The notes beneath the pieces are model-generated. The model searched no databases. It was not told the DNA's origin and saw only the letters and a list, made by a program, of their open reading frames with translations. Position numbers and translations under genes: made by a program. A DNA stretch of 64,000 nt from Flavobacterium tiangeerense. GTDB lineage: Bacteria > Bacteroidota > Bacteroidia > Flavobacteriales > Flavobacteriaceae. Location of the stretch: the NCBI RefSeq assembly GCF_007830355.1, contig NZ_VLKO01000003.1:62231-126230 (forward strand). The letters are read 5' to 3'. This document shows, piece after piece, positions 1 to 63,743 of this stretch (position 1 is the first letter of the stretch; each line of letters starts with the position of its first letter).

Positions 1-1485
1 GTAAAGGGCTTTATTGTAATATTTTAAATCAGTAGTGCTATTAACATCATCAGGTGTGTAGTACCATGGTTTTCCACTCGAGTCCAGTGGCATTGCAAAT
101 CTTGAATTTCCTTGCGCTGAAGGACCTGCTAACCAATTTGGATTTGTTGGATTACTATTAGTACCTGTTACATTCCAAGCAGCCCACATTCGATCAATAT
201 TGGCATGATGTAAAAAGAAAATAGGGTCTAAACCTGCTAATCCTGGGTCAGCCATTAAGCCTTCATATTCCTCACTTGGAGTGCTAGTAAGACTAATTGT
301 AACAGCACCGGTATTATCTGTTAAACCTGCACCGTATGCACCCGTTAAATCGTCATTTATGCAGACTTCTAATAAACCACTACTTCCATTTGGTACAATA
401 GCCCCATCTCCTATAAAAAAAGGAGTTCCGCCATTTACTCTCCCAACTAGAGCTCCCATAGCTACATCAACCATTGGATAAAGCGGTTGATTAACTGGAA
501 CAACAATGTGTGGAGAACCTTTAGCATCATATTGTTTACCGCCATTATCATGTGGATCAGCGGTCCAAGTCCCTTTTAAATAGGATACTGCAACTGTGGA
601 ACTTCCTTCAATAATATTTATTCCTGTACATTGCCAAGGTTTGTTGGCATGTACCGTAAACTTAGTACCAGAAAAAGACCAAAATTCTGAATTTAATCCT
701 CCTACCATACCGTGCGTAAAATTATGAGGATTCATTTCTAAATCTCCAAAACCACCATTGCTGTGACTAAAACCTGTTTGTGCACCACCATAATGATCAC
801 CAAAAATAGTTATACCTTTTTCGTCAGGATGTCTTTTCGGATCATTCTGTGGATCAGCACCGCTACTGTATAAAGTATCCCATTGACATTCATCATTAAT
901 TGAACTAGTCAAACCCTTTCCCACTATTAAAAATATACCATTAGTAGGGTTACCCGTAACTCCATATCGTTCTGGAACATACAAAGGATTTGCAGTACCA
1001 TCTGGCAACTCAGCCTCAGTAAATGCTGGAGGAATATAGTTTTCTTCAAAGGTTGGGGATTGATTCAAATAATTCCAATACGGCAAGGCCCAGTCGCTTG
1101 GTCCTCCTAACTGAACAATTGTATCTCTAAGAATATTTTCAAGAGCTACTAAATACCCTCTATGCCAAGGAGGAAAAAACCAAGTACCGTGCTGACATTG
1201 ATTCCAAAACAAACTAATAAAATTTTGATCTGGCAATGTACCAAGTTTTGCTGATTCTGGTATTGAATTGATTTTAGTCCAATTAGGATAACCAGATGGT
1301 GCTGTATCTGTACCAAAATCACTCGTTAGATATTCTCCATGAATAGCGGCGTAGAACCACCAACTTGTGGGATTACTAATTGGTTTCAATTTCATTGCCC
1401 ATACTGCTTTTGCATACCACAAAAGATCTAAATTCTCAAAGGTACCTCCGTTGTTCCATGCATTCGCTCTTGTAAATGTTGTCAT
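1..1485 (-). CDS. Tyrosinase family copper oxidase with inserted LecA/PA-IL-like domain (3' end cut by window)
   Basis: The first 495 residues are visible from an ATG at 1485; the 3' end lies beyond position 1. Tyrosinases bind two coppers through six histidines and oxidise phenols to quinones. CuA ligands are His49 (AIHGEY), His99 and His108 (in HGTWFFPPWHRGY). CuB ligands are His254 and His258 (NPHNFTHG) and His426 or His427 (LDPIFFLHHANIDRMW). In ordinary tyrosinases the HNxxH and DPIFFLHH motifs are a few tens of residues apart. Here they are separated by about 160 residues, and residues ~273-400 resemble the Pseudomonas PA-IL/LecA lectin fold: a GALVGRV strand, then LLEVCINDD and a DNTGAV calcium-loop-like end. 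LecA sugar-binding His50/Gln53 are not evident. No signal peptide is seen at the N-terminus. The tyrosinase call is firm. The lectin-like insert is recognised by eye. Confidence 0.93.
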   Translation of the reverse strand, partial: MTTFTRANAWNNGGTFENLDLLWYAKAVWAMKLKPISNPTSWWFYAAIHGEYLTSDFGTDTAPSGYPNWTKINSIPESAKLGTLPDQNFISLFWNQCQHGTWFFPPWHRGYLVALENILRDTIVQLGGPSDWALPYWNYLNQSPTFEENYIPPAFTEAELPDGTANPLYVPERYGVTGNPTNGIFLIVGKGLTSSINDECQWDTLYSSGADPQNDPKRHPDEKGITIFGDHYGGAQTGFSHSNGGFGDLEMNPHNFTHGMVGGLNSEFWSFSGTKFTVHANKPWQCTGINIIEGSSTVAVSYLKGTWTADPHDNGGKQYDAKGSPHIVVPVNQPLYPMVDVAMGALVGRVNGGTPFFIGDGAIVPNGSSGLLEVCINDDLTGAYGAGLTDNTGAVTISLTSTPSEEYEGLMADPGLAGLDPIFFLHHANIDRMWAAWNVTGTNSNPTNPNWLAGPSAQGNSRFAMPLDSSGKPWYYTPDDVNSTTDLKYYNKALY

Positions 1486-2039
1486 AGTTATTTTTAGTTT
1501 GATTGATAGTTTTTATTAAGGTTTTTAACCCAAACTGGCGAATGGGTTAGCAAATCATAATGCCTTCTGTTGACTGCTAGATGGCCACTATTTACTTAAT
1601 CGTTCCTAATTTCAGTGTAATGTAGGAACCTCTTTCGCCTAATTTAAGAACACACCCAAAATTTAATTTGGTTTATGAGCACTCAAAACTAAAACAATTA
1701 TCACAACGGTAACCGCGTATTTTTACGTGTTTTATGATACTAAATAATGATTAGGTGTTTTATAAAAAAGATTTATCTTGTTAAATACACCCTCTTGCAA
1801 AAGTCAATTCAGAGCGTTCAAAATTATATTTTTGGGGATTTTTTTGGGAAGCAATTCCAGCTATACGTTACAATCTTATACGCCGAAACCCGGCGCATAA
1901 GGATATTCACTACTATCTGGGCTATGTTTTTGTTAACAAAAAGCGCATTACTTGCTTTAGGCTCCTTATAAACGTACTTTGTAAAGATATTAATTCAGAA
2001 TCAAAGGGGCTTAAAACTATTCCTTTACATCAAAAAACC
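1486..2039. other. Intergenic region between tyrosinase and helicase genes
   Basis: About 550 bp without a convincing gene. A short plus-strand reading frame at 1747-1971 has no family resemblance and no ribosome-binding or promoter context, so I do not call it. A small inverted repeat (AACCCA/TGGGTT, 1529-1550) lies just upstream of the tyrosinase. The leader of the tyrosinase gene is presumably here, but I see no well-spaced promoter. Confidence 0.5.
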
Positions 2040-36458: not shown

Positions 36459-37617
36459 AATTCTTCGCTTTATCAAATAAATCTTTACATCTTGTTTTAG
36501 CGTTGTTACCCAATTGAGCTCTGATTTTTGAATCTTCTAGAATTTTGAAGTAGGATGATAATTCTGATATTTCTTGGTATAAAAAGCCAGTCTCTTTTTG
36601 GACAACGGTATCTTTATTGCCATTTATTTTAGTCGCAATTACTGGTTTTTGTAATACCATAGCCTCAAGAACCGCGATAGGTAACCCTTCCCAAAGTGAG
36701 GTTTGAAGATAGATATCTAAAGCATTTATTTGCTCGTACACCTGTTTTTTTTCTAAAAACCAACCTGTGATTTTGATATTTGGTGCTGTAATTTGATTGC
36801 GTTCTTCTCCATCGCCAATCCATAGAAATTGATACTCTGGAAATTCCAAAGCAATGGCATTGAATTGTCTTGGATTCCTAGCTGCAGTAATCCTACCAGC
36901 AATTCCTATAGTTAGTTTTGGATTATTAACGGCTTGTGAATATTTTTCGATAGCAGAAATATCTATTCCATTTCTAATCATTGTGGCTTTTCCTAGTTGT
37001 TTTGCCAATTCAAACTCGGAGTCACCACAAGCGATGGTGATTCCTCCGAAAAATTTTTGAAAGAATTTCTCGATGTACCAATATCCTTTTTTGGCAATTG
37101 GTGCTATATCGGTTCGTAAAAAAGCATAGCCGTGCGGCGTGTAGAAGACAATTGGTTTTGGGTTTAAAAAACTACAAGCAATTCTCCCTAAAACACCTGC
37201 TTTAGAGGAATGTAAATGCACCACATCAGGTTTGATTTTTTGTAGTTCACGTACTAATTTGTGTATAGCACTAAAATCCGAAATGAAGTTTATTTGTCGC
37301 TTCATCTCAATTTTTACAGTTGGAATAGTAGAAAATAATTGGCTTACTTTTTCTGGATCAATTTCTTTGCGATTATCACTGTATAGAATGAAAGTTTGTA
37401 CTTTTTGAAGAATGGTATCGTTTTCAAAATGATGTGTTAGATCTTCAAAATAGGTATAAATGCCTCCACCTAACGCTTCGATAATATGTACAACTTTCAA
37501 ATTTTTATTTTTTGCTTGGGAAACAAAAATAAAGTATTCTTTCACACTTTTACAAAAAACAGCGATACAATTGATGTAAAAATAAATCCAAAAAAGCAAT
37601 TTGTTGTTCCTTAGCAC
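36376..37617 (-). CDS. GT4-family glycosyltransferase
   Basis: 413 residues from a GTG at 37617. The GT-B features are VVHIIEALGGGIYTYF (donor/acceptor loop), VHLHSSKAGVLGR, the central linker TIGIAGRITAARNPRQF, and the nucleotide-sugar motif YLQTSLWEGLPIAVLEAM with E-x7-E. The homologous fold starts at residue 41 (KVVHII), so a TTG at 37500 is a credible alternative start that would remove a hydrophobic 39-residue leader. It runs against its neighbours. Its 3' end overlaps the O-antigen-ligase-like gene by 83 bp, and an interspersed hairpin repeat lies directly upstream. Confidence 0.88.
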   Translation of the reverse strand: MLRNNKLLFWIYFYINCIAVFCKSVKEYFIFVSQAKNKNLKVVHIIEALGGGIYTYFEDLTHHFENDTILQKVQTFILYSDNRKEIDPEKVSQLFSTIPTVKIEMKRQINFISDFSAIHKLVRELQKIKPDVVHLHSSKAGVLGRIACSFLNPKPIVFYTPHGYAFLRTDIAPIAKKGYWYIEKFFQKFFGGITIACGDSEFELAKQLGKATMIRNGIDISAIEKYSQAVNNPKLTIGIAGRITAARNPRQFNAIALEFPEYQFLWIGDGEERNQITAPNIKITGWFLEKKQVYEQINALDIYLQTSLWEGLPIAVLEAMVLQKPVIATKINGNKDTVVQKETGFLYQEISELSSYFKILEDSKIRAQLGNNAKTRCKDLFDKAKNFTALQELYERYFFAAAKDFQKSKTKSH

Positions 37618-37618
37618 C

Positions 37619-37680
37619 GGGAGCAGCGGTATCCTTTGCTTTTTCGTTTAAAAAGCAAAGATATAGCGAATCACGGGACG
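37619..37680. repeat. Interspersed hairpin repeat, copy A
   Basis: GCAGCGGTATCCTTTGC, then a stem (TTTGCTTTTT/AAAAAGCAAA), then GATATAGCGAA and CGGGAC. The same order of conserved blocks occurs in copy B (59931-59998) in the opposite orientation. Copy A lies at the start of the GT4 gene. Confidence 0.7.
37656..37663 (-). promoter_or_regulatory. Possible -7 box of the GT4 gene within repeat copy A
   Basis: The minus strand reads TATCTTTG, formed by the right arm of the repeat hairpin. It may be a promoter or just part of the repeat. Confidence 0.35.
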
Positions 37681-37763
37681 ATATGTCCTAGAAAGCCTTT
37701 TACTTCCTGCTTCAAATTTAAAAAGAAAGAAGGGGTTTGTGAGTGAGTTTTCTTCAAATCAAT

Positions 37764-59886: not shown

Positions 59887-60122
59887 TCTTTTGGGCGTAA
59901 CCCTCAGTCTCGTTCAGTAAAACGAGACCTCGGGTCGGGCTTTTCGCTCTATCTTTATTTTTTTAAAGAAAAAAAATAAAGGATGCCGCTGCAATCCCTT
60001 ACGCACTCGAGTAAAGTTCAAATAAAGCGTCATAATTTTCACGTTATCAAAAAGAAATGTATTTTTACAAGTTCATATACTAAAAGGTGTATTTCATAGT
60101 TAATTGATAAAAACGTTTTCCA
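59887..60122. other. Intergenic region with repeat copy B upstream of sprE
   Basis: About 235 bp. It contains a TCTCGTT/AACGAGA hairpin (around 59909-59927), then repeat copy B, then AT-rich leader sequence to the TTG start of sprE. No separate gene is seen. Confidence 0.5.
59931..59998. repeat. Interspersed hairpin repeat, copy B
   Basis: Read on the minus strand: GCAGCGGCATCCTTT, a 12-bp stem (AT-rich; 59953-59964 with 59970-59981), AAAGATAGAGCGAA, then GCCCGACCCG. The order and spacing of blocks match copy A at 37619-37680 in the opposite orientation. Confidence 0.7.
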
Positions 60123-62747
60123 TTGAAAATCAATATATTTAAAACATTATCTGTCGGGTTACTTCTTACTTTTTTTGTAGCTTGTTCTACAAAAAAAGAC
60201 ACCTTCATTTCTAGAAATTCCCATGCCTTAAGTACAGAATACAACATCCTTTACAACGGACAAATAGCCTTAGACAAGGGCACAAAAACCGTCAACGACA
60301 ACAGTGATGATAATTTTTGGAATATTCTACCCATAGAAAAAATGCAAATTTCAGAGGAGTTTTCAGCGTCAAACAAAGCTAAAAATCCTGATTTTGAATT
60401 GGCCGAAACCAAAGCGACTAAGGCCATTCAAAAACACTCCATGAACATTAATGGCCGAGAAAAAAACATGCAAATAGATGAGGCGTACCTCATGCTAGGA
60501 AAAGCCAGATATTATGATCAAAGGTTTATACCAGCTCTTGATGCATTCAATTACATTCTTTACAAATATCCTAACAGTAGTAAAATTTACGAAGCTAAGA
60601 TTTGGCGTGAAAAAACCAATATGCGTTTGGGCAATGACCCGCTCGTTATCAAGAATATTAGTAAGTTATTAGAAGACCACGAAGTAAAAAAACAAGTTTT
60701 TGCCGATGCAAATGCGCTTTTAGCTTCTTCTTTTTTAAACTTAGAACAAAAAGACAGTGCTGTGGCCAAATTAAAATTAGCCATAGATTTTACAAAAATA
60801 AACCAAGAAAGAGCTAGATACCGTTTTATTTTAGGGCAGTTATATCAAGAGTTAGGACATAAAGATAGTGCCGTAGCAATGTACCAAGGAGTCATTGACA
60901 TGAACAGAAAAGCGGAGCGCAAGTTTGTCATTCAAGCACAAGCAAAAAAAGCATCGCTTTTTGATTATCAAAAAGGAGATGTGGCATTGTTCACTAAAAC
61001 CTTTGACAAATTAATAAATGACCGAGAAAACCGCCCATTTAAAAATTTGATTTTTCATCAAATGGCTTTATTTCATGACAAGCAAAACAACCAAGAACAA
61101 GCAGTTGCGTTGTATAATGAATCCTTAAAATCAAATTCTAAAGATCCTTATCTCGTAGCTTCAAATTATAGAAATCTGGGGAATATGTATTTTAGAAATA
61201 CAAAATATCCTATTGCAGCTAAGTATTATGATAGTACATTGGTAAAACTTAATGATAAGACTAGAGAGTTTGCAAAAATCAAGAAAATTAGAACAGATCT
61301 TGATGAGGTTATTTTATATGAAACCATTGCCAATAGAAATGACAGTATTCTGAGGGTGGTAGCCATGAGTACACCAGATAGAATTGCATATTATGAAAAA
61401 TACATTGCGGTACTCAAAGAAAAAGAAGAACAAAAACGAATACTAGAAGAAAAAAACAAACGCATTGCAGAAAATTTAGCCGCAAATTCATCGATTAATT
61501 CACCAGATCCAGCTACAAATTTAAGCCCGCTACCCCCAGGAGGAAAAAACGCTATGCTTCCGCCATCAGGGAACGCACCTATTTCACAACAAGCACTCAG
61601 CACCTTTTATTTTTACAATCCGACCACAGTAGCTTTTGGAAAAGTAGAATTTAAGAAAAATTGGGGAGATAGAGAAGCAATAGGCAATTGGAGAATGCTA
61701 AAAGCTATATCAAATGCAAGTTCAGCAAACGGTGATACTAATTCTCCACTTACAAGCGCAGAAGGATTATCATCAACAGCTCTTGCAGAGCAATTCACTA
61801 CTGATTTTTACATCAAGAAATTACCTACTGAACAAGCCGACTTGGATAAGTTAAATAAAGACCGAAATGAGGCATACTATCAATTAGGAATAATCTACAA
61901 AGAGAAGTTCAAAGAAAATCAATTGGCAATAGCCAAGTTAGAGCAATTACTTTTAAATAATCCTGAGGAAAAACTAGTGTTACCTACCTTGTATAATTTG
62001 TATAAATTATACCAAATTACCGATGTGAGTAAAGCAACAGCTATAAAACAAAAAATAGAAACTCAATTCCCTAATTCACGCTATACTCAAATTATAAGCA
62101 ATACCAGCTCAAGTTCAGTAGCTGTAGAAGAAACTCCAGAAACAACGTATAACAAATGGTATAGAATTTTCCAAAGTGAAGAGTACGTAACGGTATTAGA
62201 AAACATAGACCTATTAATTACACAATTTTCAGGTGATGCTATAGTGTCAAAATTTGAATTGCTTAAGGCCAATACCATAGGTAAACTAAGAGGAGTAACG
62301 GCTTTTAAAAATGCGCTGCAAGATGTTGCTGATAATTATCCAAATAGCGATGAAGGTAAGAGTGCCGTGCTTACTTTAAAAGAGCAAATTCCATTTTTAG
62401 AAAAAATAGATTTCAAGACAACAGAAAGCGGTAAGTGGAAAGTATTGTACACCGTAGGGAAAAAAGATGCCGAAGCCACTAAACTCTTAACAGATAAATT
62501 AACCAAATTTATAAAAGACAACGATTTAACTGAATTGTCTTTCTCATTTGATGTGTATAATGAAAAAGAAAATTTCATCACAATCCACGGATTTAATTCT
62601 AGTGCATTTGCAACGAACATCACAACAAAAATACTATCATTAAAACCTACTGGGAATGTGCCAAATGCCATTGTGATTAGCAATGATAATTATAAAGTAA
62701 TCCAAATTAAAAAGAATCTTGAGGCTTATCTAGGTCTAAAAAAATAA
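60123..62747 (+). CDS. sprE: SprE/PorW-type tetratricopeptide lipoprotein (type IX secretion, gliding)
   Basis: 874 residues from a TTG start, which is required for the signal peptide (INIFKTLSVGLLLTFFVAC); Cys21 is the lipobox cysteine. The body contains several TPR-like helical repeats (about 110-380, e.g. AYLMLGKARYYDQRFIPALDAFNYI), a Pro/Ser-rich linker near 455-490, and a second repeat region. The pattern matches SprE of Flavobacterium johnsoniae and PorW of Porphyromonas, lipoproteins needed for type IX secretion and gliding. It is followed by a bactofilin gene 3 bp later and then ATP-synthase accessory genes. Confidence 0.87.
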   Translation: MKINIFKTLSVGLLLTFFVACSTKKDTFISRNSHALSTEYNILYNGQIALDKGTKTVNDNSDDNFWNILPIEKMQISEEFSASNKAKNPDFELAETKATKAIQKHSMNINGREKNMQIDEAYLMLGKARYYDQRFIPALDAFNYILYKYPNSSKIYEAKIWREKTNMRLGNDPLVIKNISKLLEDHEVKKQVFADANALLASSFLNLEQKDSAVAKLKLAIDFTKINQERARYRFILGQLYQELGHKDSAVAMYQGVIDMNRKAERKFVIQAQAKKASLFDYQKGDVALFTKTFDKLINDRENRPFKNLIFHQMALFHDKQNNQEQAVALYNESLKSNSKDPYLVASNYRNLGNMYFRNTKYPIAAKYYDSTLVKLNDKTREFAKIKKIRTDLDEVILYETIANRNDSILRVVAMSTPDRIAYYEKYIAVLKEKEEQKRILEEKNKRIAENLAANSSINSPDPATNLSPLPPGGKNAMLPPSGNAPISQQALSTFYFYNPTTVAFGKVEFKKNWGDREAIGNWRMLKAISNASSANGDTNSPLTSAEGLSSTALAEQFTTDFYIKKLPTEQADLDKLNKDRNEAYYQLGIIYKEKFKENQLAIAKLEQLLLNNPEEKLVLPTLYNLYKLYQITDVSKATAIKQKIETQFPNSRYTQIISNTSSSSVAVEETPETTYNKWYRIFQSEEYVTVLENIDLLITQFSGDAIVSKFELLKANTIGKLRGVTAFKNALQDVADNYPNSDEGKSAVLTLKEQIPFLEKIDFKTTESGKWKVLYTVGKKDAEATKLLTDKLTKFIKDNDLTELSFSFDVYNEKENFITIHGFNSSAFATNITTKILSLKPTGNVPNAIVISNDNYKVIQIKKNLEAYLGLKK

Positions 62748-62750
62748 ACT

Positions 62751-63152
62751 ATGTTTGATAAAAAGCAAAAACCATACACTGATCTTTTAGGTAAAACGAA
62801 TAGAATTGTAGAAGCTACAACAATCACTGGAGACATATCCTCTAAGGCTGATTTTAGACTGGATGGAAATTTAATTGGAAATTTTCATTCAGAGGGTAAA
62901 ATTGTTATTGGTCCGTTGGGTAGTGTAAAAGGAGACATAATTTGTAAAAGTGCTGATATAGAGGGGAAATTTGAAGGTAAAATTCAAGTAACCGAACTTT
63001 TAAACATTAAAGCAACCGCACGTATTAATGGTGAAGTACTTGTAGGGAAACTTTCTGTAGAACCAGGAGCTGATTTTACGGCTACTTGTACCATGAAAAT
63101 GATGAATACAAGTCAAACACCAAATGACAGTGAAAAAGGAACCAAAAAATAG
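62751..63152 (+). CDS. Bactofilin (polymer-forming cytoskeletal protein)
   Basis: 133 residues. The central right-handed beta-helix of bactofilins is visible as short Gly/Ile-spaced strands: TITGDISSKADFRLDGNLIG, GKIVIGPLGSVKGDI, SADIEGKFEGKIQV and LLNIKATARINGEVLVGKL. The ends are short and polar, as usual. Bactofilins self-polymerise and scaffold envelope enzymes. It starts 3 bp after sprE and overlaps the next gene by 29 bp, so it is part of the same operon. Confidence 0.94.
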   Translation: MFDKKQKPYTDLLGKTNRIVEATTITGDISSKADFRLDGNLIGNFHSEGKIVIGPLGSVKGDIICKSADIEGKFEGKIQVTELLNIKATARINGEVLVGKLSVEPGADFTATCTMKMMNTSQTPNDSEKGTKK

Positions 63153-63363
63153 TAATGTTAATAAGTGGCTTTTATTTATGGGAATCCCTTTTCAAATGGG
63201 GATTGTCATTTTTTTATTCACTTATTTAGGAATATGGCTGGACGGAAAATATACTCATGGAACAACCCCTTGGTTTACCATTGGGCTATCCTTATTTTCT
63301 GTTTTTGTTGGGCTATATAATGTCATACGTCAGGTGAACAACAGTAATAAAAATAATAAATGA
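63124..63363 (+). CDS. AtpZ/AtpI-family small membrane protein
   Basis: 79 residues with two membrane segments (about 15-37 and 48-68): WLLFMGIPFQMGIVIFLFTYLGIWLDGKY, and TPWFTIGLSLFSVFVGLYNVI (each abridged). The GxWLDxxY pattern is the AtpZ/AtpI signature, proteins that assist assembly of the ATP synthase c-ring or Mg2+ handling. It overlaps the bactofilin by 29 bp and the next gene by 4 bp (ATGA). A shorter start within the overlap is possible. Confidence 0.88.
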   Translation: MTVKKEPKNSNVNKWLLFMGIPFQMGIVIFLFTYLGIWLDGKYTHGTTPWFTIGLSLFSVFVGLYNVIRQVNNSNKNNK

Positions 63364-63743
63364 GCAAATTAATTACGTTTTTAAAATATTGTATACCCTT
63401 TACCTTACTATTGTATTTTGCACAGCAATATGCAACAACGGCTTTAGGATCTCAACACGATTTTTTTTACACAACTTGGAGTATTTATTTATTTCAATTT
63501 ATATCATCATTACTCCTATATATAATACTGCTTTTTGTTCATTCAAAATTACCAGAATATACAGGGTTTGCTTTTATGGGAATTACGTTTTTTAAAATGA
63601 TGGCCTCGGTTGTTTTTTTAATTCCTTTGATACAAGCAAAGGGGAGAGAAACTAATTTAGATATCGCTGCATTCTTTATCCCGTATTTCCTATTTTTGTT
63701 TTTTGAAACTGTATTTTCAATACGATTGATAAATAAAAGATAA
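63360..63743 (+). CDS. ATP-synthase-linked membrane protein, 4 TM
   Basis: 127 residues with four membrane segments (about 8-24, 38-57, 69-90 and 103-122) and few other features. I recognise no named domain. Its position between AtpZ and atpB is where other Bacteroidota carry a small AtpI-like protein, so a role in ATP synthase assembly is likely but inferred. It starts with an ATGA overlap to the previous gene. Confidence 0.75.
   Translation: MSKLITFLKYCIPFTLLLYFAQQYATTALGSQHDFFYTTWSIYLFQFISSLLLYIILLFVHSKLPEYTGFAFMGITFFKMMASVVFLIPLIQAKGRETNLDIAAFFIPYFLFLFFETVFSIRLINKR

Follow-up and report, generated by a model that had tools for sequence, protein, structure and literature searches.

In the tyrosinase HcTyr1 of Hahella sp. 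CCB MM4 (PDB 8B74), which has no nested domain, 23 residues lie between His215 and His238 (PMC11609597). LecA (PA-IL) and PllA are free-standing galactose lectins without an attached enzyme. In EclA of Enterobacter cloacae, a LecA-type domain that retains calcium and in which the galactose residues are not conserved shares its chain, end to end, with a second domain that binds sugar, and its authors described it in 2024 as the first case of a LecA domain fused to another (PMC11875179). A lectin-like partner of a tyrosinase is known from Agaricus bisporus PPO3, where the light subunit is a separate chain of the ricin-B-like lectin type, outside the copper loop (further background in PMC11608171, PMC8350385, and PMC7287795). 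Here we describe a tyrosinase gene at the left edge of a 64,000-nucleotide stretch of Flavobacterium tiangeerense (contig NZ_VLKO01000003.1, positions 62,231 to 126,230; hereafter, the window), in which about 140 extra residues, predicted to fold like LecA, are nested between the second and third ligands of the second copper site (CuB).

The kind of enzyme is already known; what appears to be new is the nesting of a LecA-like domain in its copper loop. The insert shares its predicted fold and its calcium-ligand positions with LecA and PllA, but unlike them it belongs to an enzyme, and unlike the EclA domain it lies within its host. Among the matches listed from the open-licence PMC literature, mostly judged by title, no tyrosinase with a LecA-type insert was found, in keeping with an earlier reading of this DNA (hereafter, the sequence-only reading) that knew of no described tyrosinase with this architecture. 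In the same literature, tyrosinase and PA-IL together gave no match, no bacterial tyrosinase fused to a carbohydrate-binding module appeared by title among the matches listed, and PF07828 (the PA-IL family) was met in nematode lectins only. It is established that the tyrosinase has six copper histidines, that the insert occupies the position given above and is doubled in three relatives, and that the calcium-ligand positions are invariant.

A tyrosinase with an extended CuB loop

The gene, its copper ligands, and the insert lie at the following window positions.

1..1485, minus strand: N-terminal part of the tyrosinase, 495 of 690 residues (open frame; PF00264, E 1.7e-29)
1339..1341, minus strand: His49, ligand of the first copper site (CuA), identical in 71/71 alignment rows
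1189..1191, minus strand: His99, CuA ligand, identical in 71/71 alignment rows
1162..1164, minus strand: His108, CuA ligand, identical in 71/71 alignment rows
712..726, minus strand: HNFTH with the CuB ligands His254 and His258, both identical in 71/71 rows
265..690, minus strand: whole extra stretch, approximately residues 266–407 (from 31 aligned sequences, of which 23 have the insert and 8 lack it)
205..210, minus strand: His426 (seventh histidine) and His427 (third CuB ligand), identical in 71/71 rows

The complete tyrosinase of 690 residues is encoded on the same contig (contig 3 positions 61643–63715). The window edge cuts it after residue 495, and its remaining part, including the lid, and the downstream PpoB2 gene are located to the left of the window. 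Pfam recognised two families in the full-length protein, PF00264 (tyrosinase; 103.7 bits, above the family cut-off of 22.6) and PF25271 (DUF7868), and left the stretch from one CuB motif to the other without a match. All six copper-ligand histidines are present (His49, His99, His108, His254, His258, and His427; row counts refer to the alignment used for the full-length tyrosinase model), and the sequence-only reading had placed His254, His258, His426, and His427 correctly. Cys97, two residues N-terminal of His99 and identical in 71/71 rows, is the likely thioether partner. Asn255, directly after HisB1, fits tyrosinases, although this does not by itself prove phenol or catechol oxidation.

From His258 to His427 the tyrosinase spans 169 residues, and alignment with insert-free relatives showed that the extra stretch is flanked by ...HGMVGG and EGLMADP.... 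CuB spacing was taken as the distance between the first residues of HNxxH and DPxFxxH and was counted in the query and the best 120 of 2392 matches; both motifs were present in 113 of these 121 sequences, the HNxxH pattern being missing in eight. The spacing was 23–37 residues in 89 sequences, which agrees with the earlier statement that these motifs usually lie a few tens of residues apart, 162–172 in 20 (166 in this tyrosinase), 291–299 in three, and 100 in one. The sequence-only reading had proposed a search for other tyrosinases with the same insertion, and 22 more were found among these matches, so that 23 of the 121 compared carry it at the same place. The three in the 291–299 group contain two head-to-tail copies, each about 60–68% identical to this insert, giving 26 copies. 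With P0002 set aside, the remaining 17 rows were 55–71% identical to the insert segment of the window. Chance or a frame error was ruled out as the source of the insert, given that 690 codons are open and that 22 other listed proteins have it in common.

Variation of other kinds was also seen among these sequences. In P0115, the 100 residues between the CuB motifs do not resemble the LecA-type insert, which hints that the CuB loop of tyrosinases may have accepted other inserts. In P0017, P0037, P0045, P0047, and P0062, some with and some without the insert, HNxxH lies approximately 70–150 residues further from the start, indicating an N-terminal extension.

Predicted LecA-like fold and calcium site

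274..669, minus strand: LecA-aligned part of the model, residues 273–404 (predicted structure)

In the predicted structure, the insert has the LecA jelly-roll fold, with about 19–22% identity to LecA and PllA in the structural alignment. The sequence-only reading had recognised a PA-IL/LecA-like domain at 286–669 (residues 273–400). The likeness is supported by the model, which aligns with LecA over residues 273–404, and the extent agrees with this aligned part but falls short of the whole extra stretch (approximately 266–407). The PA-IL profile check that it suggested had the opposite outcome: PF07828 did not match this tyrosinase, the best insert copy scoring 16 bits against a curated cut-off of 22.5, and the insert is therefore called LecA-like rather than a member of PF07828. 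Across 395 Bacteroidota genomes, PF07828 matched a single genome, which was not this one. LecA was not among the matches listed when PDB sequences were searched with a profile of 17 of the 26 insert copies, so the link to it was made by structure and via protein P0185. Foldseek and VIA, run on the full-length model, gave tyrosinases and hemocyanins and no LecA among the matches listed, although single domains of long models can escape such searches. The missed Pfam model and the lack of LecA in the PDB profile search would suit a beta-sandwich of another family that merely resembles LecA, an explanation that we consider extremely improbable beside the model alignment.

To compare residues, 216 proteins were screened for domain copies that the insert profile matched over at least 100 positions, which gave 114 (26 in tyrosinases, 88 in other proteins).

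352..354, minus strand: Asp378, proposed calcium ligand at the LecA Asp100 position, with the neighbouring Asp379 as an alternative (114/114 copies identical)
313..318, minus strand: Asp390-Asn391, proposed calcium ligands at the LecA Asn107-Asn108 position (114/114 identical; P0185–LecA alignment)
556..558, minus strand: Asp310, proposed main-chain calcium ligand (26/26 tyrosinase copies; Asp or Asn in 78/88 others)
487..489, minus strand: Gln333, possible counterpart of LecA Gln53, correspondence unproven (26/26 tyrosinase copies, 38/88 others)

Asn377 is also invariant (114/114). In the P0185–LecA alignment, Asp390-Asn391 falls on Asn107-Asn108, and Asp378 or Asp379 falls on Asp100, residues that we take to be the calcium ligands of LecA; the match of Asp378, Asp390, and Asn391 to these ligands, claimed from the sequence, thus holds. 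Gln333 is placed 11 residues before the GALV motif, and LecA Gln53 presumably lies 10 residues before its own. Five residues (Asp313, Ser324, Pro325, Gln333, and Pro337) do not vary among the 26 tyrosinase copies but do so in the other copies, which suggests that this group uses the loop holding them in its own way. The ligand make-up proposed for the insert is the same as that in the EclA-N crystal structure with calcium: an Asp, an Asp-Asn pair, and two main-chain oxygens (PMC11875179).

A structural or assembly module, serving oligomerisation or stability without binding sugar in its host, would also be compatible with part of these data: LecA is a tetramer, EclA is a dimer, EclA-N has calcium and no known sugar, and tandem doubling would suit a spacer. 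However, the calcium positions and the group-specific loop are fixed in 26/26 tyrosinase copies, which goes beyond the needs of a spacer, and we regard such a role as unlikely.

Gate-keeper position, lid, and operon

244..246, minus strand: Pro414, gate-keeper position (BmTYR alignment; seven residues after the insert)
Residues 543–687, left of the window, minus strand: C-terminal lid, PF25271 (Pfam)
L003:5863–6627, minus strand: PpoB2 gene, PF09948 (E 5.8e-27), directly downstream of the tyrosinase gene (L003:6644–8716, minus strand)

Chain position 220 of BmTYR aligns with residue 416 of the tyrosinase, and taking the BmTYR gate keeper to be Val218, the gate-keeper position becomes Pro414. 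A review locates the gate keeper of tyrosinases at the active-site entrance. The lid contains a conserved phenylalanine, Phe621, as its likely plug. With the insert ending seven residues before the gate-keeper position, it might serve as a regulator of latency, in which binding of a ligand or of calcium would move the gate loop or lift the lid and switch the enzyme on; the plugged lid and the rise in HcTyr1 turnover after lid removal (PMC11609597) fit this idea. Nevertheless, the 89 short-spacing relatives lack the insert and some have the same lid domain, implying that lid control is possible without the insert, and we consider it improbable that regulation is the role of the domain.

The PF09948 gene lies directly downstream of the tyrosinase gene on the same strand, as in an operon of the PpoB1-PpoB2 type. 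In Marinomonas mediterranea, a tyrosinase gene is likewise followed by a PpoB2-type copper-transfer gene (PMC2855505). A PpoB2 gene is also found downstream of the tyrosinase at L007–L010 (4/4). Just upstream of a Hymenobacter tyrosinase is a phosphatidylserine-decarboxylase-like gene (L009:705–1970; PF02666, E 1.1e-32), and a similar-looking frame lies upstream of the tyrosinase in a second Hymenobacter (L010:3740–5083). Three matches to the Flavo-1 RNA in the window also exceed the gathering score (1850–1927, minus strand; 37609–37684, plus strand; 59929–60016, minus strand); the first lies in the gap that separates the tyrosinase gene from its upstream neighbour, approximately 365 bases before the tyrosinase start.

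Origin and distribution of the domain

Two quick trees were built, one of the tyrosinase core with the insert removed and one of the domain. The core tree of 71 proteins (23 with and 48 without the insert) requires two changes between presence and absence. In the domain tree of 114 copies, all 26 insert copies are on one branch (support 94, not starred) that adjoins the C-terminal domain of P0126 (602 residues; support 81), and the domain was therefore probably captured once. The simplest reading is a single capture, probably from a terminal module of another protein, followed by loss or spread; one capture with losses and later spread of the insert between tyrosinases are indistinguishable here. 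Independent captures were considered for the two core-tree changes, but the single branch of all 26 copies argues against them. The first copies of the three tandem pairs form a starred branch (support 97), which suggests a single tandem duplication, but the second copies do not form one branch. G+C content was 0.39–0.41 in windows over the insert and 0.34–0.40 in the rest of the gene, from which no conclusion on foreign DNA is drawn.

The insert profile matched 6 of 395 Bacteroidota genomes, and among the loci of these six, only the match in this genome lies in a tyrosinase frame by motif search (L043 has neither motif). In a scan of GTDB contigs, the host frame was read at 22 of 32 loci (that of L011 was probably wrongly chosen), and four were tyrosinases, from Flavobacterium, a Bacteroidetes metagenome-assembled genome, and two Hymenobacter. 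Related domains occur in other hosts: Pfam identifies P0153 as a GMC oxidoreductase with the domain at its C-terminus, and in THAP4-like, heme-binding-like proteins (Pfam matches below cut-off) it is N-terminal in P0147 and C-terminal in L005. P0122 and P0130, with the domain C-terminal and no Pfam match, appear glycosidase-like from their sequences. Furthermore, a LecA-like domain ends GMC-type FAD oxidoreductases of approximately 740 residues in Pseudomonas and relatives (L021, L023, L024, L030, L034, L036, L037, and P0153; Pfam was run on P0153 only). The heme-binding-like host at L005:1507–2877 (minus strand) is from a genome of the same genus, and L013 likewise has a THAP4-like host.

Selection and possible function of the insert

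Between this gene and that at L007, the ratio of nonsynonymous to synonymous substitutions (dN/dS) was about 0.60 in the insert (0.0708/0.1187; few substitutions), compared with 0.21 in the N-terminal core, 0.15 in the C-terminal core, and 0.15 in the lid. Relative to P0002, 16 of 18 differences in the insert fall within residues 275–340, and none at the calcium positions or Gln333. A dN/dS above that of the other parts, and the rarity of the insert in the phylum, would suit a passenger that is tolerated and drifts with no role of its own. We find this very unlikely, with ligand positions invariant in 26/26 copies, the 55–71% identity noted above, and the domain kept in 23 proteins. In the same gene pair (L003:6644–8716 and L007:5212–7284), the synonymous divergence is 0.25 in the N-terminal part and declines to 0.03 in the lid, which recombination along the gene could account for.

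The explanation that we prefer, with our confidence evenly balanced, is that the LecA-like stretch is a module next to the active site that binds glycans in a calcium-dependent manner. PpoB2 would load copper, as in the Marinomonas operon, and the C-terminal lid would keep the enzyme latent, with Phe621 as its plug. From its attachment seven residues ahead of the gate-keeper position, the domain would dock the enzyme on sugar-bearing phenolic material, and phenols would be oxidised where sugar is bound. The sugar held by the putative site need not be galactose. A more far-reaching version, which we offer tentatively as possible but doubtful, is a glycan-addressed copper oxidase in which the calcium site, grafted once onto the gate loop and doubled in some descendants, would take hold of a phenolic glycoside or glycopolymer by its sugar, hand the phenol to the dicopper centre, and couple binding to release of the lid.

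Several observations weigh against glycan binding. The sequence-only reading had seen neither His50 nor Gln53, the sugar-contacting residues of LecA; Gln53 has a candidate in Gln333, but no conserved counterpart of His50 is present among the 114 copies. EclA-N keeps calcium, yet its authors found no ligand (PMC11875179). The location of the domain at the active-site entrance is inferred from topology. In eight proteins checked by a simple hydrophobicity score, the N-terminus did not resemble a signal peptide, so the route of the enzyme to outside glycans is not evident. The elevated dN/dS of the insert points in the same direction.

Implications for tyrosinases and LecA-like domains

The tyrosinase gate keeper lies in the loop that links the second CuB ligand to the third, and most of the sequences measured (89/113) keep this loop short. 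That a lectin-like domain is kept there in 23 proteins and doubled in three indicates that a nested binding domain can be accommodated at the copper site and is probably put to use there. The LecA family is widened as well, with related domains in several protein types, compared with the single joined domain reported as the first in the EclA study (PMC11875179). If the insert binds sugars, this enzyme would be a tyrosinase that chooses its substrates by glycan and would provide a template for aiming phenol oxidases.
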